Positions 7,906 to 35,401 of a stretch of 64,000 bases of DNA are shown here, piece after piece; positions within the stretch are counted from its first letter, which is position 1; each line of letters opens with the position of its first letter. Below the pieces are notes generated by a model. That model was not told the origin of the DNA, did not search any database, and saw only the letters and a program-made list of their open reading frames with translations. The DNA is from Prorocentrum cordatum (Eukaryota > Sar > Dinophyceae > Prorocentrales > Prorocentraceae): the NCBI GenBank assembly GCA_963575745.1, contig CAUYUJ010015030.1, positions 165,001 through 229,000 of the forward strand, given 5' to 3'. The position numbers and the translations under genes are program-made.

Positions 7906-9747
7906 CTAGTCAATTGATATTCCCAGACACATTGCCACGAAAACTTCTGAAAACCTTGTTTTTTCACCTTCTCTTTGTTCAGTTACAGCGTGTTGGTGAG
8001 AATTCCAGTTCAGAACATGACCCAGAATAGAATCAGGATTCAGATGAGCTTTACGTGCGATATGGCCAGCATACCTATGAAGACGACGCCATACTATTAC
8101 ATCTAGGTCCTGGATGTGTTCAGCAATCTTGATTTTCTTAATCTGCGACCTGACCGACCGAGAATACGATTCATCAGTTTCTTCTGGTAGACGAGGCCAG
8201 CGTATGTGTCGTGCAAATTGTTTTGTCTGAGCCGCACGCAAAGCCAGTGCCGCGCGTCGGCATATATTCCAGACTGGTGAACACCATAAGCACGAATATG
8301 ATACCGTACGGTGAATCAAGCGAAATCTAGATATACGAGTGCTTGACGGACTAGAAAGTAAGTGCTGAACAGATCCCACCACTGATGTAGCCGTGAGCGT
8401 TTTAGTGCGAACATCTTGGTCCAGTTGTCCACGAGGATTCATCCATATGCCAGTGATCTTCATCGCCTTATCATGCGGCATAATCTCAACAGCAGGCCAT
8501 ATTTTGGACCAGGGATGTTTTCCTTGGTAGTGTTCACCAAGAGCACGATACGATCTTCAGGAAGGCCCCAACCATAAAGAACAAGTGCTGCACGACATCT
8601 CTTCCATATATCACGCGCATCCACGATACTGTTGGCCAGCATGAACAGATTGTCACTCCAAACCAAAAAGGGAATAAACTTGAAATTGCACATTCTGCAC
8701 CACTTGGAATAACGATGACCACAGTAAGCAACATCCAGCAGCGCAATGCCAAGTCGATCTGCCACACACTTCTGCCATACTGGGTGTAGACAATCAGTAA
8801 GCACCGTTTTGAAGAAAGCCGGCCCCCAAGCAGACCCTTGTGGAACACCGCGAGTAATGGGTGACGTGGTAGCCGTGTCACCCACCAAGTGAACATTATA
8901 TCGAATAGAACGCAAGTGTCTGAGAAACCAAGCAGCGATAAAATCTGGTACTCCTCGCCTTTGAATGGATTGGAGCACGCGAAGATGGCATACAAAATCA
9001 AGAGCCTTAGGAATATCAGCAGAACCAGCAACAAAACCAAGTCCCCCTTTGCATACACTTCTGAGCCATCATCATAATAATGAACACCATGTCCATGACG
9101 CTGTGCCCTTCACGATAAGCAAATTGCCAGGGAGCGCTGTCATGAATCTTATCCTTGGTAGATTCTAGAATGGCGCCGCCCACCATCTTTGGAAGCACAG
9201 ACATAACCGCCAGCGGCCTTAGCAAGTTGAGCCAAGTGACCAAGCTCTCCTTCGGAACCAATGCCAAATCACACAAAGTCCGCTGGGCGTCCATGCGCGC
9301 AGCCGCAACATGCAGGGGACGATCAGCCAAGCACTGTCTCTTCTGCAACACGTCGTGGCTATGGTCGAGCTGAAGTCGGTGAGGCATAACAGTGCAGAAC
9401 TCACCACGAATATCACGATCAATAGCTTCTTTAAGTGTCCAAAATGGGTTCTCCACTTGCGTACCCTTCGACGGTAAAACAACTGACAAAGGGGCGTCAA
9501 GGACTTCTTCGTTCTCTGCGCACTCCAAGAGACAAGGGCAGCATCGAGCACAAGAGTGTTGTAAGCCAAGTGTGTGGGGGCTACATAAATCGTAGTGGTC
9601 AATAGCTTCATTTGCCAGAGAGTCTGCAACCTTGATGTCCTTTCGTTGCTCTTGCGGGGCCCCTTTGGGCCTCGGGAGGGGGGGGGGACGCCGCCGTTGC
9701 CTGCCTGGGGCTCGCTGCCAACGCACGCCTGCCAGCGTCAATGCCAC
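7906..9747 (-). pseudogene. LINE reverse transcriptase relic (second LINE)
   Basis: Three minus-strand segments join to an RT: RPLAVMSVLPKMVGGAIL, then APWQFAYREGHSVMDMVF (the 'Q.G.R.G.S..D' box), a break in a G run near 9048, GSADIPKALDFVCHLRVLQS (the 'D..KAFD.V.H' box with the first catalytic Asp), a GVPDFIAAW / TRGVPQGSAWGPAFF box near 8.83 kb, and VWSDNLFMLANS near 8645-8670 (catalytic box with Asn for the second Asp). The C-terminal third carries a Trp-rich 'WRRLHRYAGHIAR' segment typical of one LINE group. Two frame breaks and the altered catalytic box mark it as dead. Its sequence differs clearly from the LINE at 2-6 kb. Confidence 0.75.
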
Positions 9748-21552: not shown

Positions 21553-22698
21553 TCACGGGACCATTCGCTGCCTAGCCATGGTCACCTCAACAGCCCACTC
21601 GTCGAAGATCTCCTGAAGTAGACGGCGCCCTCCTCGCAATCGATACCGCTGAGAGGCCCAACTCTGATAGGCATACTGCGGGTCCCAGACCACCAGACGC
21701 CTATCTTCTCCGCGATCCACCGGCAGACCAGGAGGGCCCAAGGCAGCACGTCCCACGACGTTGCTCCACGTAGAAGTCTCCAAGCTCCGAACAGACAAAC
21801 ACCAATGCCAGAACGTGGTCATTGACGCCCTCTCCTCTTCGTCGAGCTTCGGCACCCGACGTGGCGCTTGAGGTAGCTGCTCGCGACAAGGCCCACGGAG
21901 CTCAGCATCGCCAGGCAGGGGCACCCGACTGAGCTCGCGTGGGGCAGCGGGAAGAAGATCAGCATCCCCAGGTAGATGCCCACGACGAAGCACTTGAGGC
22001 CCAGGACGAGGTTCATCTTCAGGAAACGGCTCTCGTCGAAGTTCAGCAGCAGGGAGAAACCCACGGCGATGCCCATCATCCTCAGGTCGATGCTCTCGGC
22101 CTCGCTCTTGGGGCGCCCCGTCATCAGGAAGGTGCTCTCGACAGGACCTACGAATCTCAGCATCACCAGGAAGGCGCGCACGACAGAGCTCACGAGGTGC
22201 ATGAGGCTCGCAACGAAGTTCATCATCAGGAGGCTGCTCACGACGCGACTCGGCTTCAGGAAGAACCGCGCTTCGATGTCCTCTATCATCAGGTGAATGA
22301 TCACGACCACTCGCATGCTGCGCCGCCTCCTCAGGAAAAGCAGCAGGTAGAGACTCCCGTCCGCGCTCACGAATCGCACCATCCTCAGGTAGCTGCCCGC
22401 GACAGTGCCCACGAAGCTCACCATCGCCAGGAAGGCGCACACGACTGGGCTCCCGAGGGGCATCAGGAAGATGACCACCATCCTCAGGTAGATGCTGGCG
22501 CCGAGGCACAGGAGGCTCGCGTCGAAGTTCATCATCAGGAAACTGCTCACGACGAAACTCGGCTTCGGGAAGGAGCGCACGAAGGCGAAGATAGGTACGT
22601 CGTCGAAGCCACCGTCGCCGACGAGTTCGAGAGATTGCGAGTCCAGGGGGGCGAGGACGGCCGCCGTCCGCGAGACGCTCGGCAGCCGCATCCATCAT
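21553..22698 (-). CDS. Repeat-encoded protein with unique C-terminus, possible LINE ORF1
   Basis: A 381-codon minus frame. About 270 residues are a degenerate tandem repeat built on words such as LPGDAELRG, REQLPDD and PDDELRRE. The last 90 residues are unique and protein-like (MTTFWHWCLSVRSLETSTW, WASQRYRLRGGRRLLQEIF), ending at 21553. The repeat is also open in the other two minus frames and on plus, so openness alone is weak evidence; the unique tail is what supports this frame. It lies directly upstream of the LINE endonuclease on the same strand, the place of ORF1, hence the tentative call. GTG/ATG start not resolved. Confidence 0.4.
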   Translation of the reverse strand: MMDAAAERLADGGRPRPPGLAISRTRRRRWLRRRTYLRLRALLPEAEFRREQFPDDELRREPPVPRRQHLPEDGGHLPDAPREPSRVRLPGDGELRGHCRGQLPEDGAIRERGRESLPAAFPEEAAQHASGRDHSPDDRGHRSAVLPEAESRREQPPDDELRCEPHAPRELCRARLPGDAEIRRSCREHLPDDGAPQERGREHRPEDDGHRRGFLPAAELRREPFPEDEPRPGPQVLRRGHLPGDADLLPAAPRELSRVPLPGDAELRGPCREQLPQAPRRVPKLDEEERASMTTFWHWCLSVRSLETSTWSNVVGRAALGPPGLPVDRGEDRRLVVWDPQYAYQSWASQRYRLRGGRRLLQEIFDEWAVEVTMARQRMVP

Positions 22699-22911
22699 CC
22701 GCGGGGGGGGAGGCGGAGAGGGAAATGTAGGGTACAGTAAGCAGGAGATGCCCCGAGGTGGGTGGGAGAAGGCTTCAGGCGAAGGGGTCTGACCTCCAAG
22801 TCATCGGAGCAGGCAGCCCCGCCAAACCTCAGGCCTGAGCAGAAGGGGCTTAGGAGGAGGAGGAGGAGGAGGAGGAGGAGGAGGAGGAGGAGGAGGAGGA
22901 GGAGGAGGGTG
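22699..22911. repeat. GGA microsatellite at divergent zone
   Basis: Uninterrupted (GGA)n at about 22853-22906. The flanks have no gene. Confidence 0.8.
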
Positions 22912-23112
22912 TGGGCGGTGGTGGAGGGAGGACTGCGCTTTTTCGCCGTGCTCGGCCTGCGGGGGCCCTCGCCTCGCCCCGGGGCCGCCATGCGCTCCAA
23001 GACACAGAAGATCTCCCCTACGACAAATGGCCACGCCTGCTATGCCCTGCGCCATGGCCAGCATAGACGCCGCGCTCGGGGACCACCCCCTGCGCACCCC
23101 CTATGGTGTCGA
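22912..23112 (+). repeat. Dispersed repeat copy 2
   Basis: Colinear inverted copy of the 12337-12612 repeat: GGAGGACTGCGCTTTTTCGC, then CCCCGGGGCCGCCATGCGCT, then GACCACCCCCTGCGCACCCC. Confidence 0.7.
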
Positions 23113-23225
23113 GTAAGCGCCACGCCTGCTATGCCCTGCGCCACGGCCCGCATAGACGCCGCGCTCGGGGGCCACACCCTGCGCACCCCCTATGGTGTCG
23201 AGAAAGTGCCAAGCCTGCCGTGCAG
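23031..23225. repeat. 89-bp tandem repeat, about 2.2 copies
   Basis: Units begin CCACGCCTGCTATGCCCTGC at 23031 and 23120, and a diverged third at 23209; each ends CCCCCTATGGTGTCGAG. The period is exactly 89 between the three starts. Confidence 0.85.
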
Positions 23226-24680
23226 TGTGAATGCTACACGCACGTCTTGTGTATGGCATATCATGTGTATGTGGATGATGCGTGTGCGACCGTATCGGGA
23301 CGTGTGCCTCACATGTGTGCCCAGTATGTAGCGCATACGTGTGCGGAGGGATCGGGACGTGTACCTCATGTGTGTGCCCAGTATGTACGCATACGTCGTG
23401 TGTGTTTGTTGCGTGTGTGTGTGTGTCTGTGTGTGTCTGTGTGTGCGTGAGGAGAGGGAGGTGGGTGGAAGACGCGGGTGCGACGCGGCAGAAAAGAAAA
23501 CCATAACCCCACGAAACATGTGGGGGGAAAAACACAACATCGAAAGTCCGGGGCGCAGGAGCGACGATGAGGGGATGTCGCGGGAGCTTCCTCCTCCCCT
23601 TCCTCCCTGCAGGTGTCCCTGCCTCGGATCCCCCACCTCCCCTCTCCTTTCCTGTTTTCCTTCCCTCCACCCGTCGCGATGCCGCCGTGGAACACAACAA
23701 AATCTTCCTTACCCCGAACCCCCACTCATCCTTCTCCATCCCCACCTCGTCCTCCTCGTCATTGTCGTCGTCCTCCTCCTCTTTCCCATTCTCCTCCTCC
23801 TCCTCCACCTCCTCCTCCTCCGCCTCTTCCGCCCCTCAAGAGCGGGCCGGGCGTTCCGAACCAGACTTCCGCACCTTGTATGATCCTGACACTTGAATTT
23901 TTCAACAATTTCACGGATGGAGCCTCACATGTGGGTCACGAACCAGAAGTGAGGTTTATGCACAATGCCCGGATGTCAGGGCACACTGGTCACATTGACT
24001 CGCTGTCTGAAGTCCCAGGAGTAATTCTTTGGCACGACGCAAAGGTAACAATGATTCGCTACGGTGAAGTCCCAAGAATGGTGTACCAACGCTTGCACTT
24101 CCCAACGGGGCACTTCCCGCTGTGAAAATCAATCCTTGCGGGGGCCTTTGAAGAGGGAACTTGTGGCGGGAGAGTGGGTGGCAATATCGCTGATGAGTTT
24201 CGGGTTTACACTGGATCTCCTCCTCCTCCTCCGAATCCCCCGTCCTCCCCCGTTTCTACCCTCTCTTCCTCCCCCTCTCCCCCGCCTGCTTGACCTCCAC
24301 CTCCACCCTCGGAGGGGAGTGAGGGGAGGAGAAAGAGGCTAGGGGGAGAAATTTGGAGGAGCAGGGGGAGGCAAGCCTTCCCCCCACGCGATCCCTTCTG
24401 ACCCTGTGATCCAACGCTTGGAGGAAAGAAAAAACAGATGTTGTGCGTCATTCTCCTCGGCGTCGGGAAGCCACTTCTAGACCCCAAAGACAGTCGACGA
24501 GCGACTGTAGCAAGATGACAAGCCGGCACAGGGGCACGGGAGAAGGGTCGGGACTCCTGAGCGCCCTGTATTGCAGTAACCAAGACATAGGAAATCTGGT
24601 CCTGCGCCTGCCCCAGCAGGGCCTCGCCAGACTCCGAAAACCGGCCTCCGGATCCCTCCCAGGGTCCATCCTCACTGTTT
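23226..24680. other. Gene-poor zone: TG-rich tract, pyrimidine tracts
   Basis: 23226-23450 is GTGTGT/ATGTGTG-rich with a diverged direct duplication of CGTATCGGGACGTGTGCCTC. 23575-23840 is a CTC/CCT pyrimidine tract on plus. 23880-24180 has balanced composition, and 24215-24330 is pyrimidine-rich again. No credible gene. Confidence 0.5.
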
Positions 24681-24858
24681 CTGATGGGCTTGTTTTCCAC
24701 CACCACCACCATGAGCTGGAGGGGGGGGGTCCTCCTCCCCCTCTTCTTCCTCCTCCTCCTCCTCCTCCTCAACCTCCTCCTCCTCATCCTCCACCTCCTT
24801 CCCCCCCTTCAACTTATGATGGTGGTGGTGGTGGAAAACAGGCCCATCACTTTCTTCG
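24681..24858. repeat. Fold-back: inverted ends around a CTC microsatellite
   Basis: Left arm at 24683-24720 (GATGGGCTTGTTTTCCACCA onward) and right arm at 24817-24858 (ending TGGAAAACAGGCCCATCAC) are reverse complements with few mismatches; a CTC microsatellite fills the loop. Size and form fit a MITE-like or slipped fold-back insertion. Confidence 0.7.
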
Positions 24859-26116
24859 AGCAACGTCCGGTCTTGGCCGCGAAGGGGAGCCCCCGCAAAC
24901 CACAGAAGACCCGAGAATGCCTCTCGATGCGCCGCCGCCGCGTCGAGGCGGCGCGAGCCTGCCACAGGCCCGTGGGAGGTCCTGTTCGGGGGCCCCCCGG
25001 AGGCCTCCCCGTGTGCCTCCACAGCCCAAAAGGGGTCGATCGATCGATCGAGAACCCATGGGTCCATCGATCGATCGAGAACCCTCGGCGGATAGGCGTC
25101 TCGCTGCGGCTGTACCCAGGCCCTCCACGGCGACAGCACAAGCGAAAACCGACACCGACCGAAAAATCAAATGGGCAGCAGGCAGCCTGGGAAAGGAGCA
25201 ACGACGCAGCAACGACACGAGAACTGGAGGGGCCCAGGGACACACATACATACACACACACAAATACACACAAATCCCAGGATTCCAGATCGTTTCGCAC
25301 GTTTCCTTGATCTTCGTCTTCCTTGCAACTTCTCATGAGTTCTTATATTTCTGGGGCATTGACGATGAATTGCATCTGTGCGCAATCTTTCCCCCCCTCC
25401 CCCCGAGCAACACCCGACCGAACGCAGCCAACTGCAGCGCAGCCGATCAGACAGGCACCCTCAGGGCTCCTGCTGTGGCCCCGCCCAGGCTTCGTGGCGG
25501 ATGCGGCGGGTCGTGCCGTCACGACTTCGGCAGTGATGTCTGACGCCTCGCGGATCACTCGACCCTGAGCCGTCGGGGCCTCCCGAGAGCAGAGATCGCT
25601 ATGAATCGGCCGATTCTGGGCCACCGCCGGCGCTCACCCCTGAACGCCCGCGGCAGGGTCCCGGATATGCGCCGACATGATGTTTCCAATCCGCGGCCCC
25701 AGGGGCGCCGACCTCTTCCCTGGCCGCGGCGGCAGTGGGGCAAAGAAGTACATCAACTGACACAGTGTGTGTAGGTATTCCTCCGCGCACTCTCCGCCCC
25801 ATGCCTCCTCCAACTGAGCAGAAGCGTAAATTTTCTGCAGCGCCTCCTATGCATGTTTCCCACGAAGGATCGCCAATCGCGCTTCCTTCTGCCTCGAGGG
25901 CCGAAATCCAAGAGCACCGCTCCAATTGGAAGAAGCATATCTCTGGACATCTGGCAGATTGCGCTCTATATTGGCAGATTCTGGGCCATGGCGGCGTTCG
26001 ACCTTGAAGGCTCGCGCTGGAGCTGGCTGCCGCTGTGAGGGTCTCGAACCATCAACCAGATCGACTGGTCGGCTTGGAGGGCTCTGCGTATAGACGCCCC
26101 GGCTGGAACGCTGGGC
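24859..26116. other. Spacer before the retroelement, no gene seen
   Basis: 25034-25085 has a GATCGATC palindromic cluster present twice (GATCGATCGATCGAGAACCC at both places). 25244-25275 is a CACA tract. A phrase (GGCCGATTCTGGGCC / GGCAGATTCTGGGCC) is repeated at 25607 and 25974. No coding signal. Confidence 0.4.
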
Positions 26117-26249
26117 TACGCGTTTTTAAACACACTTTTACACACCCCCTGTAAACGTTCAGATAGCCGCCTCAACTGCTAATTAGGAGGAGGAGTAGCG
26201 CAGTCTCTCTCGTGTTTGTCCCTCCTCCCCTGGCGCAAAGTTTCGGCTC
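26117..26249 (+). repeat. Split direct repeat A1
   Basis: Starts TACGCGTTTTTAAACACACT and ends CAAAGTTTCGGCTC. Identical to A2 (33470-33602) apart from GCTAATTAGG versus GCAAATTAGG and CGTGTTTG versus CGTGCTTG. Confidence 0.93.
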
Positions 26250-26522
26250 GAGGCGTGGGTTTCGCGGGCGAGGCCCGCACTCGAGCCTTCAGAGAGGGGT
26301 AGCTTCCAGCCCCCGCTCGCCCCGAGCCCGCCAGGCTCGGGCGCCGACACGACGCCGGCCATCGGGCGCCCCGGCTGGCTGCTGGTGACCGCACTCGCCC
26401 TCTGCGAGCTGGACGGGCTGCTGGAGGTCTTCGGCGGGCGCCAGCAGGAGGCCGAGGAGATCCTCATCGAGCCCCTCGACCTCGGAGGAGGCGCCGAGTG
26501 GCGAGGGGCGCCAGCGGGATTC

Positions 26523-28226
26523 ATGGCGCCGTGGAGCAGGTGGAACCGCGTCTACGTCCAGGCGCAAGGGAGGAACACGGGGGTGGTGATGCTGCTGGTC
26601 AGTCGTGTCGGTCCAGGGACCTCGTTGGTTTGGACCGCGATCGACCCCGCGAAGCGGGTGCAGATCATCAACTTGCGGGACAAGGCGAGGATGCTGCCGC
26701 GCCCGAAGAAGGGAGTGACCTGGACCGAGCACCCAGGGCTGAATGAGAAGGAGAGAGAGCAGGCGATCATAGCCGCGGAGCGGCTCATTGTGCGACATGA
26801 GCTGGGACAGGCTGGTGCTGAGAGTGCCAAGGCGAACCAGACGAAGGGCAAGAAAGCGAGCTCGAAGGCCAAGGTGGCGTCCTGGTTCGGCAAGGGCCTC
26901 GTGACCACCGTGGTGACGGCGTGGGCCCACAAGACGTGGGGTGGTGCTGCAGCGGTGTTCTTTGTGGGCTGGAGGTTGTGGCGTTGGCTACATCTCGGGT
27001 CCTTCTTCGCCGCAGGATACCACACCGTCTCGGCGGGGATGCAGGCGATCGAGGACCTGGACAACTTCCGCGAGTTCCTGGGGGAGCTGTACGAATCGGG
27101 CGACCTCGAGCTGTGCGCGGCATACCTGGGCTGCGTGCTCATCGTGATCTACGGGATCTGGACATACGGATGCTCGTGCCGAAAGGAGGTCGACTCGGAC
27201 AGCGACTCGGGCTCGGACTCGGACGGCGGGTCGGTGCACGCCGGCGATGACGTGAGCGACGTGAGTGGCGACGAGCGGGACACCAAGACCCTGTTCGCGG
27301 AGTTGGCTCGCGGTCAGTCTGACTTGGCCGACGCTGTGGGCATGCTGAAGTCGAGGCTGGATGTCGGGGGCGGAGCGGGAGTAGGACCTGCCTGCGGCAG
27401 TGGGGCTCTGGCGTCGGAGCCAGGCCCGCCTCCCCCGCCCCCTGCGGGACCGCCGCCGTCCAGAGGAGACGACCCCAGCTCGGCCGAGGTGGATGCGTTC
27501 ATCAAGAAGCTGACGGAGCACGAGGAGCTGGTGCAGCGGGACTCGGGCTTGAGCACCCGAGCGCAGGCAGGGTCGCCCACGCCGAGCTCGAGTGCCGCGT
27601 CCTGGGAGAAGGTTGGAGACCTGGGCGAGCTCGATGGCCCCCTGAAGGACCAGATCGTGCAGCTGAAGGAGGAGTCGAAGAACCCAAAGGAGAGCTTGCT
27701 GGCGACGTTGGAGAAGTATCGCCGTGTGGCGGGTTCCCCCGTGGGGGGGATCAGGGCCCGCGTGGCTCCGACAGTGCTGGCGAGGCTCTACAAGGGCGGA
27801 CGGAGCGCACGCGTGGAGACGCAGGAGTGGCTCCGCTCGAAGGAGCTGCAGGGCGCGGGCATCGCGCAGGAGCTGAACATGCTGGCTCTTGTCCTGGACA
27901 GGATGATGAGCCAGGGGCAGTACGACGAGCTGATCAACTCGCAGGCCGCGGAGGTGACCTGCCTGCGCCTGTACTCGATCTGGAAGGCCTACGAGCGGGT
28001 GCAGTGCAAGAGCGACTGGCAGAGGCCCAAGGCGCAGCACGGCGGCAAGTGGCGCTCCAAGGTCGACTGGAGTCTGGCGGAGGAGTACCTGCGCCTCGAC
28101 GGGGACCCCAACAGCGAGAACAGGGGGGCCGATGACGAGGTCCTGGAGAAGCTCAGGCGGCGGGCGATCCTCAGCAAGCACCTGGGTGAGGTGCGCTCGG
28201 GGCAGCCTGCCGGCGAGGACGAATAG
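26523..28226 (+). CDS. ORF1, Gag-like protein with predicted membrane segments
   Basis: 567 codons from the first ATG. The frame is open upstream to a GTG at 26385, but ATG at 26523 is the safer start. The order is a basic N-terminal half (KRVQIINLRDKARMLPRPKK); a Lys/Ala/Gly stretch; a hydrophobic segment around residues 139-160 (GAAAVFFVGWRLWRW); a second at about 197-217 (LCAAYLGCVLIVIYGIW); an acidic Asp/Ser tract (SDSDSGSDSDGG); a Pro/Gly linker; then a charged helical C-terminal half. No CCHC knuckle is seen. Its place as first ORF of the element argues for a nucleocapsid role. Two likely membrane-spanning helices are unusual for Gag. Stop TAG at 28224-28226, before ORF2. Confidence 0.8.
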   Translation: MAPWSRWNRVYVQAQGRNTGVVMLLVSRVGPGTSLVWTAIDPAKRVQIINLRDKARMLPRPKKGVTWTEHPGLNEKEREQAIIAAERLIVRHELGQAGAESAKANQTKGKKASSKAKVASWFGKGLVTTVVTAWAHKTWGGAAAVFFVGWRLWRWLHLGSFFAAGYHTVSAGMQAIEDLDNFREFLGELYESGDLELCAAYLGCVLIVIYGIWTYGCSCRKEVDSDSDSGSDSDGGSVHAGDDVSDVSGDERDTKTLFAELARGQSDLADAVGMLKSRLDVGGGAGVGPACGSGALASEPGPPPPPPAGPPPSRGDDPSSAEVDAFIKKLTEHEELVQRDSGLSTRAQAGSPTPSSSAASWEKVGDLGELDGPLKDQIVQLKEESKNPKESLLATLEKYRRVAGSPVGGIRARVAPTVLARLYKGGRSARVETQEWLRSKELQGAGIAQELNMLALVLDRMMSQGQYDELINSQAAEVTCLRLYSIWKAYERVQCKSDWQRPKAQHGGKWRSKVDWSLAEEYLRLDGDPNSENRGADDEVLEKLRRRAILSKHLGEVRSGQPAGEDE

Positions 28227-28509
28227 GTTGCGGCCGGAGCTATCGTGGTGTGCTCTGGCCAAGGCCTGAGGGGTCAATCCCCTCTACCACGGCCGCGGCG
28301 GCGAGCCGCTTTCGTGCCGAGCTTCTTGCTGGACACGTCTTTCGGGTGGTGGTGCTACATCGGGCTGGTGAGCTTCCTGACGATCGGCTGTGGGGTCTTC
28401 CACGGCGGCGTCGGAGCGTCGAGGCCTTTCTTGTACTTGGGGCCTCGCGCCGTTCTGTGGCGAGCAGGTTTTCCCGTACGTCGGAGCGCAGGTCGCTCGG
28501 TGGTCCCAG

Positions 28510-31500
28510 ATGCCTACTGGGGAAAAGGATTTGAGAGAGAGGGATCCCTTGAGGAGTCTGCCTGGGCTCCCATTCCCACTACAGTCGAGGAGGTCGAGTT
28601 CGGGCCTGTCCGAGAAGGAGCTGAGGACAACCTGGCAGCGGACTTCGAGGACGATAGCGGCGATCAGGAGTATGGCGACGGGCTGTTCGAATGGTTGGAT
28701 ACATCCATCGAGCCTGACGGACAAGCAGACGTGCCAGACGGACTGGAGTGCGAGTACGCCGCTACAGAAAAGACTGGTGACGGAAGCCTGGGACCTTCAC
28801 GCCGCGAGGGCGAAGTGGGGGACCATCAACGACGGCAGGGCGGCATTGAGCCGCTTGGCAGGAGGAAGCCCGACAGAGTACTTTGCAAAGGGAGCGAGGC
28901 CTACGACGTCTACGGCATCGAAGGCTTCAACGCAGTTGAGGAAGGGCGACCTGTGCCCTCTGAGAGCGGAGCAGGTGTCTCTCCCAGCGCCGGGGACCCG
29001 GAGTTTGGAGGTGGCGGCGATCTCGAGTCTCGCTGGGCGGTACCTCGCAGAGGCCGGCCAGCTGATGATCAAGGGCTCGGGGGAAGTCGACTGGGAGAAG
29101 TACGAGGCGACAAAGAGCTACTCGGACCCGGCGTGGCGGAGCAAGAAGGAGCGCTTGGCACTTGCCCTGCGGATGGCGCAGGCTGGAATGATAACATATG
29201 TGACGAGGGTACGGGAACATGTCGGGCTGTTCACGGTGGCGAAGGACTTCGACCCCAAGACTGGTGGCATTGTGAAGTCGCGGCTGATCTGGGACTGCCG
29301 AAGAGTCAACCTGCTCTTCGTGGATCCCCCGTGGGTGCCTTTGGGCAGTCCCGCGGGCCTCGCGCTCCTAGAGCTGGACGAGGCGGTGCTGCGTGGACGG
29401 CGGCTCTTCTCCTTCCAGGGCGACGTACCGGACTGGTTCTATCGGTTGCACTGGGGTTCGTTTTTGGCGGAGTATTTTGTGGTGGAGGATGTCTCGCCGC
29501 AGGAGCTGTACCAGCACGGGATGGAGCAGGGTGTGGCTTTGCCGAAGCCGCGCGAGGAGGACGTTGGCATTGGGGCTTCGAGTTTGGTCATGGGCTCGGC
29601 GTGGGCGGTGTTCTTGGCCCACAGCTGCCTGGAGGCAAGCTTCGAGTCCCTGAAGGCCCCCAGCTTGACTTACGGCAAGCCCACCCCGTCTTTTGGCCTA
29701 TCGGAGGAGGAGGCGATCAGGTTCCTGCTGATGTTGTACATCGACGACTACATCGGCTTCACCCTCGAGGGCGAGGACGGCGAGCAGAAGATCCTGGAGG
29801 ACAAGGAGATGATCAAGGAGCTTCTGAACGGCAAGGGGCTCGCGGTGCACAAGGAGGCCTGGGGCGAAGGGATGGAGAACGGCCTGGGCCTGTGCATCGC
29901 CGCCACGAGGCCCTACACGCTGAGGATCCAGCCGAAGAAGATGGAGCAGGTCGTGCTGGCTACCGAGGCGGCGGTGTTGGAAGTGGCTCTCAGACCTTCG
30001 GCGGTGGCTTCTCTGGTCGGGCACTGGACCTGGACCATGATGGTCTTCCGCCCCTCGTTTGCGATCCTGGACGCGACCTACAGGTGGCTGAGGGAGTTCG
30101 ACGAGGAGGAGAGTGCTGTGCCGCATCGCTTGCCCGAAGAGGTCAGGAGCGAGTTGCGGGCCGTCGCGTCCCTCTCGGTCTACATGGAGTCGAACCTGGA
30201 GATGGGCTGGTGGCCGAGAGCGTACATGACGGATGCGTCCAACGAAGGCTTCGGTGCCCTGGCCTGCGACTGCACGGAGGAGGACGTCCGACGAGAAGCT
30301 GCCCGTGGAGATGGGGGAGCCTGGGGACCCCTGGCCGAGCAGATCTACACCGAGATCGAGCGAGCGCAGGAGGCGATCGGCGAGGAGGAGGACCTCCCGG
30401 CCGCTCCCACTACGGGGCGACCTGGGGTGTTGGAGCTCTTCGCTGGGAGCTCTCGCTTGCTGGAGGCGATCAGGGAGATGACCGACTCGTGGGGCGAGGC
30501 CTGGGACATCCAGCGGGGCGTGGAGTTCGACGTACTGGTCACAGAGAACTTGGAGCTGTTGTTACGGAGAGTGAGGACTGGCTGGTTCTGGTGGGTGCAT
30601 GTTGCCCCCCCGTGCGCGACGTTTTCGAGAGCAAGGCAGCCGCCGCTGAGGTCGAGCGATCACCCGTGGGGGCTGCCGGACTGCACGGAGACGGACCAGG
30701 CCAAGATAGACGAAGGGAACGCTTTGGCTTTGATAGCAGTAGAGGTGGTCAAGATCTGCCTACGCCTTGGCATTGGATTCACCCTCGAGAACCCCAGGAC
30801 CAGCATGATATGGGCGTTCGCGCCAATGACCGCGCTCTTGGATCTCGAGGGGGTGTTCCGTGTGGAGGTGGATTACTGCATGTATGGCGAAGAATGGAGG
30901 AAGCCAACTACGTTCATCACCAACGTGAAGAAGATGGCGACGCTACAGCGGGTGTGCTTGTGCCCCGCAAGCCGATGCAGTCGGACTGGCCGTGCTCACC
31001 GAGAACTACGAGGACGATCACCAGGTGGGCTACGGTGGACTCAGGTGGCATGTGCTTACCCGCTGGAGTTGTGCAGGGCATACGCGTCCACTCTGCAGGA
31101 GCTCGAGCCGCACTGGGACTCGATACCAGCGGGGGCCCGGCTTCGTCTGCAGGGCGACCGCGGGCGCGTCGTGCGAGCGACTGGGCCGGCCCTGCCTCTG
31201 CTGGGCCATTGGCTGGAGAAGAAGTGGCACGTGCTGTTTCAGGGACGGTGGTCTCACGCAGAGCACAACAATGTCTTGGAGCTGCGTACGGTGGTGGCGG
31301 TGCTCCGACACCTCAGTCGCACGTCCCAGAGCTGGAATCACCGCGTGCTGTTCTTCACCGACTCGTTGGTGAGCCTAGGCGTCCTCAAGAAGGGGCGCTC
31401 GTCTGCCAAGGACCTCTTGCACCTGGCGAGGATCGGCGGCATCATCCAGATGGTTTGCAGGATCCGCGGGTATTTCAGGTGGGTGCCGAGCGAGCTCAAC

Positions 31501-31647
31501 CTGGCAGACGGCCCCTCGAGAGGTCAAGGCATACGCGCGGCGGAGGACACCGTGGCGGGCCACGTGGGCCGTGGGGTGCCGAAGGAGCTACTTCAGCGGC
31601 TGCAAGATCGGGCCCGACGAGGACCGCTTGGAGCTTCGCATTTGTGA
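28510..31647 (+). CDS. ORF2, reverse transcriptase-RNase H with nested cytosine methyltransferase
   Basis: 1045 codons from ATG 28510; the frame is open upstream to a GTG at 28390, and a frameshift link from ORF1 cannot be excluded. RT: LIWDCRRVNLLFVDPPWVP, SFQGDVPDWFYRLHW, then LYIDDYIGFT with YIDD at residues 410-413. RNase H: YMTDASNEGFGA (Asp 575), NNVLELRTVVAVL (Glu 924), FFTDSLVSLG (Asp 951), ELNLADGPSR (Asp 1000). Between Asp 575 and Glu 924 lies a C5-cytosine methyltransferase-like domain: VLELFAGSSRLL (motif I, Phe 644), APPCATFSRAR (motif IV, catalytic Cys 702), TLENPRTSMIW (motif VI, Glu 760), CMYGEEWRKPTTF and CAYPLELCRAYA near its end. Stop TGA at 31645-31647 overlaps the ORF3 start. 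Confidence 0.9.
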   Translation: MPTGEKDLRERDPLRSLPGLPFPLQSRRSSSGLSEKELRTTWQRTSRTIAAIRSMATGCSNGWIHPSSLTDKQTCQTDWSASTPLQKRLVTEAWDLHAARAKWGTINDGRAALSRLAGGSPTEYFAKGARPTTSTASKASTQLRKGDLCPLRAEQVSLPAPGTRSLEVAAISSLAGRYLAEAGQLMIKGSGEVDWEKYEATKSYSDPAWRSKKERLALALRMAQAGMITYVTRVREHVGLFTVAKDFDPKTGGIVKSRLIWDCRRVNLLFVDPPWVPLGSPAGLALLELDEAVLRGRRLFSFQGDVPDWFYRLHWGSFLAEYFVVEDVSPQELYQHGMEQGVALPKPREEDVGIGASSLVMGSAWAVFLAHSCLEASFESLKAPSLTYGKPTPSFGLSEEEAIRFLLMLYIDDYIGFTLEGEDGEQKILEDKEMIKELLNGKGLAVHKEAWGEGMENGLGLCIAATRPYTLRIQPKKMEQVVLATEAAVLEVALRPSAVASLVGHWTWTMMVFRPSFAILDATYRWLREFDEEESAVPHRLPEEVRSELRAVASLSVYMESNLEMGWWPRAYMTDASNEGFGALACDCTEEDVRREAARGDGGAWGPLAEQIYTEIERAQEAIGEEEDLPAAPTTGRPGVLELFAGSSRLLEAIREMTDSWGEAWDIQRGVEFDVLVTENLELLLRRVRTGWFWWVHVAPPCATFSRARQPPLRSSDHPWGLPDCTETDQAKIDEGNALALIAVEVVKICLRLGIGFTLENPRTSMIWAFAPMTALLDLEGVFRVEVDYCMYGEEWRKPTTFITNVKKMATLQRVCLCPASRCSRTGRAHRELRGRSPGGLRWTQVACAYPLELCRAYASTLQELEPHWDSIPAGARLRLQGDRGRVVRATGPALPLLGHWLEKKWHVLFQGRWSHAEHNNVLELRTVVAVLRHLSRTSQSWNHRVLFFTDSLVSLGVLKKGRSSAKDLLHLARIGGIIQMVCRIRGYFRWVPSELNLADGPSRGQGIRAAEDTVAGHVGRGVPKELLQRLQDRARRGPLGASHL

Positions 31648-32861
31648 TGGCCATGAGCGGGCTGACGCTGTGCGAAGCGATGCCGCGGCGTGGGGTGGAC
31701 GGCCCCGCTACGACCTCTGCAAAGCCCCCCCCTCTGGCTAAGAGGGGCGCTCGGGCCTGGGAGCAGGCCCCGAGTGACAAGCTGCACCACAATGTGAGGC
31801 TTGTGGTGCACGCAGTGGACGACGCCACGAATCAGATCTACGAGAAGGAAGTGAGGACCTTCCTCCTAGACGTGAAGCGGCACGGGCTCCCCTTCTCCAC
31901 TTACGAGGAAAGGGATGCGGCGCTTGGCGGGTACATATCGGACATGTGCTACGTGATGCAGTTGCCCTTCGGCAAGGCGTCGGCGTTGTTCAATGGTTTC
32001 ATGCACATCTTCGAGGACCACCGCAATCGGCTCCCCGTCGCGGCCAGGGCGCTCAAGTCCTGGTCTAGGATGGGCTTCCAGAAGGAGGGGGCGCCGGTGC
32101 CTTTCGAAGCGGTGGGGTGCGTGATCTACGACCTCTTTGAGCACGGCCAGCTGTACGAGGGGGCCGCGGTGCTGCTGCAGCTGGACGGCTGGCTGAGGGA
32201 GCAGGACTGGGGCCTCCTCAGGAAGACGGACGTGGCGGTGGGCCCCGACGGGGAGGTCGGGCTCACCTTGGGCCGCAGAGAGCGGGGCGAGAAGGTGAAG
32301 ACGGGAGCGAACCAGGGTGTAGTGGTCTCGTGGGAGGTGACGAAGGCCATCCTACGGGCGATTGGCAAGGGCGCGGCACCACGGGACCTCCTCTTCCCGA
32401 TCTCGCAGGACAAGTACAGGAAGACGTGGAGGCAGGCGTTCGACAGGGCGGGCCTGGCGGACTTCGGCCCCCCGCACTCGCTGAGGCACGCGGGGGCAGC
32501 GGCCTACATCGCCGCTGGCGGCTCGCTGGAAGCGGCGCGCCGGAAGGGCCGCTGGCAGACCACGTCGGCCCTTCAGCGCTACACGAAAGTGCACGTGCTG
32601 ATCGAGCAGCGGGCGCGGCTCACCCCCGCGCAGCTTGAGCGGGGGAGGGCCTTCTGGCGCAGGCCCGCCCAGCAGATCTCAGAGGCCATCTACCGTTCCG
32701 ACGCTGTGATGGCCCCGCTGGCGCGGGACATGGTGCACGAGCTCGGGGCAGCAAAGAACGACGAGGTCGTGCTGCCGCAGCTGGAGAGTATGGCGGACGG
32801 AGGCGCGGAGCCCACCAGCCGCCCATCCACTGCTGGCCGTAGCAGGGCCAGACGGCAATGA
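31647..32861 (+). CDS. ORF3, tyrosine recombinase
   Basis: 404 codons. The ATG at 31647-31649 shares its A with the ORF2 stop (TGATG), which suggests translation by termination-reinitiation. It has a disordered N-terminal 45 residues, a helical core-binding part (LLDVKRHGLPFSTYEERDAA), then the catalytic domain: LREQDWGLLRKTDV (Arg 184), PHSLRHAGAAAY (His 277, Arg 280, His 281), KGRWQTTSALQRYTK (Trp 303 in the His/Trp position, Tyr 312 nucleophile). This complete R-H-R-W-Y set is that of phage-integrase-type recombinases, which in this element class insert the circular cDNA. The chain continues about 90 residues past the Tyr. The gene is intact. Confidence 0.92.
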   Translation: MAMSGLTLCEAMPRRGVDGPATTSAKPPPLAKRGARAWEQAPSDKLHHNVRLVVHAVDDATNQIYEKEVRTFLLDVKRHGLPFSTYEERDAALGGYISDMCYVMQLPFGKASALFNGFMHIFEDHRNRLPVAARALKSWSRMGFQKEGAPVPFEAVGCVIYDLFEHGQLYEGAAVLLQLDGWLREQDWGLLRKTDVAVGPDGEVGLTLGRRERGEKVKTGANQGVVVSWEVTKAILRAIGKGAAPRDLLFPISQDKYRKTWRQAFDRAGLADFGPPHSLRHAGAAAYIAAGGSLEAARRKGRWQTTSALQRYTKVHVLIEQRARLTPAQLERGRAFWRRPAQQISEAIYRSDAVMAPLARDMVHELGAAKNDEVVLPQLESMADGGAEPTSRPSTAGRSRARRQ

Positions 32862-33147
32862 GCAGGCTGATGCAGCCCCCACTCCCATTTCAGGCCCCGC
32901 CTTTTGCGGGGGCCATATCTTTTGATATGAATGCAGGAGCCTCGAGTTTTGGGCGCGTGCACCCTGTCCTCCTCTTGTCCTCCTTGAACATGTGATAGAT
33001 CTGGGGAAAATATAAAGCAGGTTTTTTGGTGGGTGAGAGCGACACAAGTTATCTCCCTTTCCCCCCCTCCCGAATGTGTGCCGCGCTCGAGTCTAGCTGT
33101 GGCTGGAAGCGTGAAGGCACAAGTGCCAGTCTAGTGATGACGGGACT
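32862..33147 (+). other. 3' untranslated part of the retroelement
   Basis: Between the recombinase stop and B1. Contains GGCCCCGCCTTTTGCGGGGGCC near 32893-32914, which can fold into a GC stem. No ORF of note. Confidence 0.6.
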
Positions 33148-33469
33148 GGGGGTTTCGCCGCGAGGCTTTTTGGCCCGACCGTGGGCCGAGGCACGGTCAG
33201 GTACCTCTCGGCCTTTTATGTTTCGGGCCTCACACGGGGCCCCGCCGCTGCGAACAGATACTTTCGGAGGGTGCCCCCTCCTCTCGAGCCGCTCGCTGTC
33301 CTTGTCTCTCCCGCTGCTGCGTCGGATATTCTGTGGGGCCTCTTTTGATTAGGGTTGTCGCTCTACCCCCGCCTGCCCCCAGCACTCTAAAATCAAGATT
33401 TTATGGTATAGGCACGCTCCGAGTTAACATACATTCAAGCCTGGCTCTCGAGTGTGGGTGCTGTGTAAA
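33148..33469 (+). repeat. Split direct repeat B1
   Basis: Starts GGGGGTTTCGCCGCGAGGCT and ends GGTGCTGTGTAAA, abutting A2. Matches B2 at 33637-33965 except for a single-base change (GAACAGATAC versus GAACTGATAC) and a 7-bp length difference after GCTCGCTGTCC. Confidence 0.93.
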
Positions 33470-33602
33470 TACGCGTTTTTAAACACACTTTTACACACCC
33501 CCTGTAAACGTTCAGATAGCCGCCTCAACTGCAAATTAGGAGGAGGAGTAGCGCAGTCTCTCTCGTGCTTGTCCCTCCTCCCCTGGCGCAAAGTTTCGGC
33601 TC
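33470..33602 (+). repeat. Split direct repeat A2
   Basis: Second copy of A1, directly joined to B1. The B1/A2 junction GTGTAAA-TACGCG is what circular joining of the element ends would give. Confidence 0.93.
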
Positions 33603-33636
33603 CCAACCCTGCCCACCCTTGGGCTTGTATGAGCTC

Positions 33637-33965
33637 GGGGGTTTCGCCGCGAGGCTTTTTGGCCCGACCGTGGGCCGAGGCACGGTCAGGTACCTCTCGG
33701 CCTTTTATGTTTCGGGCCTCACACGGGGCCCCGCCGCTGCGAACTGATACTTTCGGAGGGTGCCCCCTCCTCTCGAGCCGCTCGCTGTCCTGTGGGGTTT
33801 TCTCTCCCGCTGCTGCGTCGGATATTCTGTGGGGCCTCTTTTGATTAGGGTTGTCGCTCTACCCCCGCCTGCCCCCAGCACTCTAAAATCAAGATTTTAT
33901 GGTATAGGCACGCTCCGAGTTAACATACATTCAAGCCTGGCTCTCGAGTGTGGGTGCTGTGTAAA
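33637..33965 (+). repeat. Split direct repeat B2, right end of the element
   Basis: Second copy of B1. After its final GTGTAAA the sequence changes to CGTCTATAAACC, setting the right boundary. Confidence 0.92.
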
Positions 33966-34410
33966 CGTCTATAAACCGAACTCCTTCTCCGAGTTCCTTG
34001 GCTCCTTGGCCGACCAAACGACGTGATGTATCAGCCATATCCCAGACCGCGAGACCCGTCCCGTACTTCCTTGCAGCACCGCGTGCCCGAACACAAAAAC
34101 GGACGAGTCCGATCCAGCACGGACCGTCCTGGAAACTGAGAACAAATGCGCCATCTTGACCAGACTCTGCCCCAAAGACCCTCTGCCGTGGACGCGCCTT
34201 CGAAACCCCGGGAACCCAGGAGGCCCCCGGGCCCTGGGGGGAAGGGGCCCTGAGATCCGACAGCATAAACAAAATGAGGCATCGGAAGAGTCACGAACGT
34301 AGCCCCAGACCCCATCTTTCGACCCAGTCGGTGTGTGTAAATAGCCCTTCGACGCGGGGCCCGCCAGGGGCCGCCTGCGTCGTCTCAAGATCCCGATCAA
34401 CCAAAACCGC
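33966..34410. other. Spacer, no gene seen
   Basis: Minus frames to 147 aa exist but show no motif. Ordinary composition. Confidence 0.4.
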
Positions 34411-34540
34411 AAGGTTCAAGGTTCAAGGTCAAGGTCAAGGTTCAAGGTTCAAGGTTCAAGGTTCAAGCTTCAAGGTTCGAGGTTCAAGGTTCAAGGTCAA
34501 GGTACAAGGTTAAAAGTCAAGGTTCGAGGTCAAGATTCGA
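34411..34540. repeat. AAGGTTC / AAGGTC minisatellite
   Basis: About 18 tandem units of AAGGTTC mixed with AAGGTC, decaying at both edges. Confidence 0.9.
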
Positions 34541-35204
34541 ATTACAACCTGCGCCTTTTGTTCGAGCCAGATCGCTCTGTGAGGGTCCCGGGGCCCGAAG
34601 CCGGGCGAACACACCCGCAACTGCGGGGCTCTCCTTTTGTGAGAGAGGTGGGCGTGGAAAGACCAGAGCTCGGACTGCTACTCGAGAAGCTATATCTGGA
34701 AACCAAGCATCAGCCTGCAACTACAGCAGCTGAGTCGAAAGGTGTGTTGACTACTTGTAAGGACCTGGGGAGCTTCAGTCCGCGGATGAGATTTCCCCCT
34801 CTGCGCCTGTCCGCAAGGCAGGTCGGCCCCACCCACGGGCGGCCGATCCTGCGCTGTACACGACCTTCCCCGCCGCGGCGCGCGCCTTTGGGCGCGGCCT
34901 TGCGCCACTGGCGCGCAGCACGGGCACCTCTGCGTGACCAGCGCCCGTGACGGGGATCGGCGAGGCCAGGCGGAGGCCCACCGATGGGTGCTCGGAGCTG
35001 ACGGTGGCAGGGTCTGATCCAAACGCAATCGCACCTCTCGTCGTCGTCCTCCTCCTCCTCCTTCTCCTCTTCCTTCTCCTCCTCTACTTTTTCCTGCTCT
35101 CCCTCGCCCCTCATCTTCTGATCCTCGTCTCCTTTCTCCTCCTCCTCCTCCTCCTCTTCCTCCTCCTCCTCCTCCTCATCCTACTCTCCCTGCTCCTCCT
35201 CGCT
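34541..35204. other. Spacer ending in a CTC microsatellite
   Basis: 34541-35035 holds no recognised gene. 35040-35204 is a CTC/CTTCTC pyrimidine tract ending directly at the spliced-leader relic. Confidence 0.5.
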
Positions 35205-35224
35205 CCCTAGCCACGTTGGCTCAA
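35205..35224 (+). other. Spliced-leader relic (dinoflagellate SL) before LINE ORF1
   Basis: CCCTAGCCACGTTGGCTCAA matches the 3' twenty bases of the dinoflagellate spliced leader (CCGTAGCCA, TTT, TGGCTCAA) at 17 of 20 positions without gaps. It sits about 180 bp upstream of the ORF1 start on the same strand, as a reverse-transcribed trans-spliced mRNA would place it. Confidence 0.75.
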
Positions 35225-35401
35225 AGTGCTTGCATTGGGAGGCTGCGCGCTTCCGTGCCGAACTGGCAGCCGCTATTCCGCAGCATTGCCAGGACTGTCC
35301 AGTCCAACATCTTCTCGCGCCAGCTGGTCCGCCCCATCTTGGTGCCTGGCCCCCGCTGCCCGCGGGTGCTCAGTTCATTTCACGACACCTCAATCGCAGC
35401 G

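Follow-up and report, generated by a model that had tools for sequence, protein, structure and literature searches.

Cytosine methyltransferases carried by retrotransposons are already known from dinoflagellates, as the initial annotation of the present locus had stated. De Mendoza et al. (2018) described enzymes of the Dnmt3 type in the Pol of dinoflagellate DIRS elements, and the Dnmt3 domains of these SymbioDIRS elements gave de novo CG methylation in yeast (PMC5890265). According to the text of the same paper, the DNMT was not required for activity and DNMT-bearing DIRS elements had no CG depletion. Domain orders varied, and nesting is absent from that text. The enzyme otherwise described for DIRS elements is Dam-like (PMC5890265), and in DIRS1 it follows RNase H in the domain series RT, RNase H, MT (PMC3266345). 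DIRS1 and PAT elements combine a tyrosine recombinase, RT, RNase H and a methyltransferase, PAT elements with split direct repeats (PMC3266345, PMC4157794), while Ngaro elements are without methyltransferase (PMC4157794).

The element of Prorocentrum cordatum presented here has much in common with these systems. Like SymbioDIRS-Dnmt3, as the text of PMC5890265 describes it, it is a DIRS-class dinoflagellate element with A-coding-B-A-B repeats and a methyltransferase in the Pol ORF, and the enzymatic parts of DIRS1 and PAT are all represented. However, its methyltransferase lies inside RNase H, not after it as in DIRS1, and is of C5 type instead of Dam-like; unlike Ngaro, the element does have one. 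The freely available literature text searched gave no description of a methyltransferase nested in RNase H, which justifies the doubt voiced in the annotation as to any earlier report. Three things appear to be new, the placement of the enzyme within RNase H, the recurrence of this arrangement, and a methyltransferase family missed by PF00145.

Structure and classification of the element

The window, i.e., the whole stretch of 64,000 nucleotides analysed, contains the element listed in Table 1. No other Pol, RT, RNase H or methyltransferase sequences were found in the rest of the window when open frames of at least 120 aa were searched with our own profiles.

Table 1. Features of the element, in window positions.
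Feature	Position	Strand	Remarks
Whole element	26117..33965	+	7849 bp; ends TACGCG...TGTAAA; limits common to related copies in the same genome
Split direct repeat A1	26117..26249	+	98% to 33470-33602
ORF1	26199..28226	+	open frame of 675 aa; first ATG 26523; putative gag role, from its position
ORF2 (Pol)	28510..31647	+	from first ATG; open frame starts 28381, 1088 residues
Reverse transcriptase region	29056..30180	+	YIDD at 29737; profile built in this analysis
RNase H first part (beta1-beta2)	30178..30300	+	catalytic Asp codon 30232-30234
Nested C5-methyltransferase domain	30424..31101	+	profile match residues 682-907; fold match
Methyltransferase motif codons	30613-30615; 30787-30789	+	Cys of PPC; Glu of ENP
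RNase H second part (beta3 to last helix)	31195..31533	+	Glu 31279-31281, Asp 31360-31362, Asp 31507-31509
ORF3 tyrosine recombinase	31680..32861	+	PF00589 E 3.8e-8, 33.7 bits, cut-off 27.1
Split direct repeat B1	33148..33469	+	matches 33637-33965
Split direct repeat A2	33470..33602	+	pairs with A1
Split direct repeat B2	33637..33965	+	pairs with B1

ORF1 gave no match in a Pfam search. ORF3 carries the recombinase motifs HSLRH (32475), GRW (32547) and RY (32577). The repeats follow the order A1, ORFs, B1, A2, B2, i.e., they are split direct repeats, the arrangement by which PAT is defined in the text of PMC4157794. At the border of B1 and A2 the end of the element is joined to its start, resembling the junction of a circle. 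No target-site duplication was seen by eye in the flanks of the element copies compared. By its sequence, with RT and RNase H, a tyrosine recombinase and A1-B1-A2-B2 repeats, the element is a PAT-type tyrosine-recombinase retroelement of the DIRS group. Since its methyltransferase is of C5 type and placed inside RNase H, not Dam-like, the wording that it works like a PAT element fits better than plain membership.

Some further properties were observed. In the copy L023 another A repeat is found directly 3' of the element (8166-8401), again as an end-to-start junction, giving a tandem or recombined appearance. The element is GC-rich, and the frame of the recombinase runs for 1544 codons without a stop (28227-32861, +), spanning all of ORF2. 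On both sides, at 22000-25100 and 34400-35230 of the window, the element is flanked by CCT/GGA-rich low-complexity tracts and AAGGTTC-type repeats.

A methyltransferase within the RNase H domain

Both the D-E-D-D site (D618, E967, D994 and D1043 of ORF2) and the type 1 fold of RNase H are present. D618 lies in the first part of the domain and E967 follows 349 residues later, at the coordinates given in the initial annotation; D994 and D1043, after the insert, supply the further acids. The C5 motifs LFAGSS, PPC and ENP that the annotation had read in this gap, and a later KPT motif, are all found between D618 and E967, the key residues being P744, C745, E803, N804 and P805. In the predicted structure two complete folds are nested, the methyltransferase being continuous between the separated pieces of RNase H. 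As the annotation had supposed, the insertion is in a surface loop: the beta2-beta3 hairpin carries the methyltransferase fold and RNase H is otherwise complete. A complete RNase H elsewhere in ORF2, named there as one case against nesting, was looked for by profile and no second one was found. Based on this model, a C5-type methyltransferase fold almost certainly sits in the beta2-beta3 hairpin of RNase H.

Pfam was of little help for the RT, which had no match in the window ORF and was matched in only seven of the 16 members of set A3 at E up to 1. Chance motifs or a broken frame were rejected as the origin of the pattern; when the insert was shuffled 100,000 times, the combined motif order was never met. 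An assembly artefact or a unique chimera was likewise rejected on the basis of 41 full-length loci, the window's own included, at 95-100% identity.

Relationships of the nested enzyme

The predicted structure and the fold match identify a C5-cytosine methyltransferase fold, and motif IV PC and motif VI EN are both present (PPC and ENP in 21/21 copies). Structural relatives were taken from the Foldseek list and a re-alignment of that same list, so that families besides those listed may also be related. Sequence searches gave far less. The nested domain had no match to PF00145 at E up to 10, and the Pfam, NCBIfam and PDB-sequence searches gave no usable match; one of the PDB searches returned two matches only (E 0.13 and 1.5) and the other none. 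Weak matches were obtained with DNA-methyltransferase families of PHROGs (phrog_2882, E 3.1e-5; phrog_757, E 0.011).

Relatives of the nested enzyme were encoded at nine loci on viral contigs (L045-L053) in a pattern search based on A3; the corresponding methyltransferase pattern search with A5 found none on viral contigs. All four viral sequences scanned, of the nine found, passed PF00145 (28.3-35.7 bits, cut-off 22). The five of nine that were aligned are 24-26% identical to the nested enzyme and share its motif run, LFAG, PPC, ENP and YCxYGxxWxKPT, as well as a C/H-containing tail and a similar length; they differ in being stand-alone frames and, where scanned, PF00145-positive. Four phage records were recovered by tblastn (E 5e-3 to 5e-2). 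Membership in the C5 family follows from the fold together with the bridge over these PF00145-positive viral relatives, and by sequence the nested enzyme appears to be near the compact C5-methyltransferases of phages. The stand-alone relatives P0024-P0032 have EQP (ENR in P0030) replacing ENP; their frames are short and mostly on short contigs.

One may ask whether the element is simply the published SymbioDIRS-Dnmt3 in another species. Class and repeat arrangement are the same, and there too a cytosine methyltransferase resides inside Pol (text of PMC5890265). However, the published domains were found via PF00145 and belong to the Dnmt3 clade, while the enzyme described here is PF00145-negative, compact, phage-like and nested, so that the two are set apart by description. 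In addition, 123 PF00145 loci of the same genome were scored among 3,990 candidates, and none lay within 5 kb of the 104 listed Pol loci, a part of which were inspected for nesting. We regard this identity as highly improbable.

The choice of substrate is a separate matter, as the C5 fold by itself is no guide to DNA versus RNA. An enzyme acting on RNA (that of the element, a tRNA primer or other host RNA), like the Dnmt2 branch of C5-methyltransferases, would suit a protein that handles RNA-DNA hybrids, and one Foldseek row (rank 13) is 3qv2 EhMeth, which we take to be a Dnmt2-type enzyme. Against this, PHROGs gives the name DNA methyltransferase to the closest relatives by profile (phrog_2882), and the remaining fold-match rows, RNase H and RT aside, are titled likewise; these are names and titles and involve no substrate test. 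An RNA substrate seems quite unlikely to us, and the methyltransferase is probably active on DNA.

Copies in the genome and in related proteins

The genome searched comprised 4.13 Gb in 21,875 contigs. With the window ORF as a query, 42 loci were scored out of 20,459 first-look candidates, 41 being the full-length loci mentioned above and one further locus being in two pieces. No stop interrupts 26 of the 41, and the other 15 have one or two TAG codons. All 16 in-frame stops in these 15 ORF2 copies are TAG, with no TAA or TGA; in L017, the one stop-bearing copy inspected, TAG is at residue 1010. The search with P0003 led to 43 scored loci out of 20,514 candidates, all 40-41% identical over most of their length, 39 of them without a stop and six being loci already among the window-ORF matches.

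The nesting recurs beyond the window. Sixteen further loci of the same genome (L029-L044), from about three other subfamilies and many of them near-identical, have RT, RNase H part 1, methyltransferase and RNase H part 2 in this order, with the sole exception of L035, where a stop precedes RNase H part 2. As they were found with nested-type queries, these loci are uninformative on the frequency of other arrangements in the genome. Nesting was also seen in relatives down to about 27% identity. In a hand-read table of 62 proteins (61 found plus that of the window), all three pieces were nested in 15 and nine were partial and compatible with nesting; the methyltransferase came after RNase H in 13 and before it in three, stood without the other pieces in 15, matched weakly in one (P0015) and gave no match in six. 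In relatives with another order the enzyme follows RNase H or precedes RT. The count is less reliable for gene models with missing stretches, among them P0035-P0038, P0040 and P0053. The two RNase H parts were 20-101 residues apart where the enzyme is absent or elsewhere, versus 214-378 where it is inside; P0011 has a gap of 289 residues and no methyltransferase match.

Two observations concern individual records. A methyltransferase of this kind precedes the RNase H part in P0010 and in P0060 and P0061 (Symbiodinium sp. CCMP2592), apparently in another retroelement class. Four public models named P. cordatum (P0035, P0036, P0037 and P0040) skip the PPC stretch, probably due to introns predicted over an intronless Pol, and the enzyme would thereby be hidden from annotation.

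Phylogeny

The first tree was built from RT and RNase H part 2 for the 33 rows having both pieces and enough RT. Sixteen nested rows, two degenerate rows and P0054 formed one group (support 99/99), while the nested P0049 was placed among rows with the methyltransferase after RNase H. A single clade of all 17 nested rows was rejected (AU p 2e-5), which leaves two readings, at least two origins of nesting within the sample or an exchange of parts between elements. The branch of P0049 is long, and RNase H part 1 matched in it only at E 6e-3. These sequences suggest more than one origin of nesting.

The second tree, of the methyltransferase (44 rows after removal of some near-copies and short rows), was broadly like the first, with a nested group of 14 (90/94) and a C-terminal group of 10 (94/87). 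Its deep branches were weak, and P0049, P0050/L037 and P0013 fell outside the main nested group.

P0054 has no methyltransferase domain and a short loop in its place, and might represent the empty site before insertion. However, it falls within the nested group in the RT tree, and loss is weakly favoured; holding it outside the nested rows gave a borderline AU p of 0.042, for a group named after the tree had been seen.

Conservation and selection

The four RNase H acids and the five methyltransferase key residues are intact in all 21 copies compared, and T843 of the KPT region varies in one. These copies are the top protein scorers, hence biased to intact ones with pN lowered, and gave pN/pS values of 0.28 and 0.26 in the methyltransferase and RT, respectively, and of 0.08 and 0.135 in the two parts of RNase H. 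Not all of them are independent, since L021 and L022 share the right flank. Between L041 and L029, members of two subfamilies and 75% alike in RT, the methyltransferase had a dN/dS of 0.179, against 0.184 in RT; the values for L037 and L043 were 0.091 and 0.179. L029 and L034 have almost no synonymous change, with a methyltransferase dN/dS of 0.34 and the other domains undefined. For other families, the identities in methyltransferase and RT were 66 and 69% (P0001), 43 and 39% (P0003) and 39 and 31% (P0005). Judged by these substitution patterns, purifying selection acts on the methyltransferase as on RT, and RNase H is under purifying selection as well. A methyltransferase Ka/Ks similar to that of RT is also given for SymbioDIRS-Dnmt3 in the text of PMC5890265.

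Conservation bears on the view that the methyltransferase fold is mainly structural and serves RNase H as a clamp or spacer, with catalysis secondary. P0011 and P0015 fit such a role, retaining an insert of 289-295 residues in the same place with both PPC and ENP gone, so catalysis is not always required. The P0015 insert has a weak profile match (E 5e-3; hhalign P 0.0011, probability at most 20%), and its predicted model (mean pLDDT 68.9, insert about 60-80) keeps the strand-helix order, which is suggestive only, since the input alignment itself contained nested methyltransferases. The existence of P0054 with its short loop is also counted in favour. On the other side are the retention of PPC and ENP in every one of the 21 copies, the RT-like dN/dS of the methyltransferase, and an alignment of 25 sequences in which PPC/ENP is kept in all rows with letters there, bar N804 (H in P0050, Q in four stand-alone rows). 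We consider a mainly structural role unlikely.

Possible function

As a whole, the reading we find reasonably likely is that of a PAT-type element whose Pol carries, in the RNase H hairpin, a methyltransferase that marks the element's own cDNA. Carried by the very domain that removes the RNA strand of the hybrid, the methyltransferase would methylate the new cDNA, or its circular form, ahead of integration by the recombinase, so that a new copy would arrive pre-marked. Given that the Dnmt3 domains of SymbioDIRS methylate CG in yeast, such activity is plausible in kind. That own cDNA is the main target is the likeliest role, and we propose it tentatively, at somewhat under even chances. The initial annotation had named methylation of own cDNA or a shaping of host methylation as what the insertion allows, and is partly supported, namely in the anatomy, its recurrence and the selection on it. 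Counting against our reading are the inserts of P0011 and P0015 that have lost PPC and ENP, the missing domain of P0054, and the statements in PMC5890265 on a dispensable DNMT and undepleted CG.

Composition counts, if anything, against a simple form of self-methylation. CpG o/e was 0.90 in the element and 0.93 and 0.88 in the flanks; CpG was not depleted in the element, nor did the 21 ORF2 copies have a C/T excess specific to CpG. C/T polymorphism per site in these copies was 0.101 at CpG, 0.093 at CpC, 0.105 at CpT and low, 0.044, at CpA. Transversions were highest at CpG (0.056 versus 0.014-0.036), and transversions are not an expected product of deamination. The missing CpG footprint neither supports nor excludes self-methylation.

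The enzyme could instead act in trans and target the host genome or rival elements, shifting silencing in favour of the element. Effects on host methylomes are suggested in the text of PMC5890265, and many copies could supply enough enzyme (42 loci were scored out of the 20,459 first-look candidates). However, integration into RNase H argues for action at the site of cDNA synthesis, and action in trans appears very unlikely as the main role.

Significance

It is surprising to find the catalytic residues of one enzyme separated by another, complete enzyme. With the nested arrangement intact in several subfamilies, RNase H evidently tolerates a whole domain in its beta2-beta3 hairpin. As the family is undetected by PF00145, surveys of eukaryotic DNA methyltransferases based on PF00145 likely miss it. 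Marking of own cDNA by retrotransposons was suggested, not demonstrated, in the text of the 2018 work (PMC5890265), and the nested element offers a direct route to asking whether retrotransposons mark their own cDNA epigenetically. A broader and rather doubtful generalization is that the beta2-beta3 hairpin of RNase H may be a recurrent docking site for a DNA-modifying enzyme in retroelements, where one composite fold would combine RNA removal with marking of nascent cDNA, having arisen at least twice and decayed to a retained non-catalytic module in one branch. If that were true, epigenetic marking would be coupled to reverse transcription.
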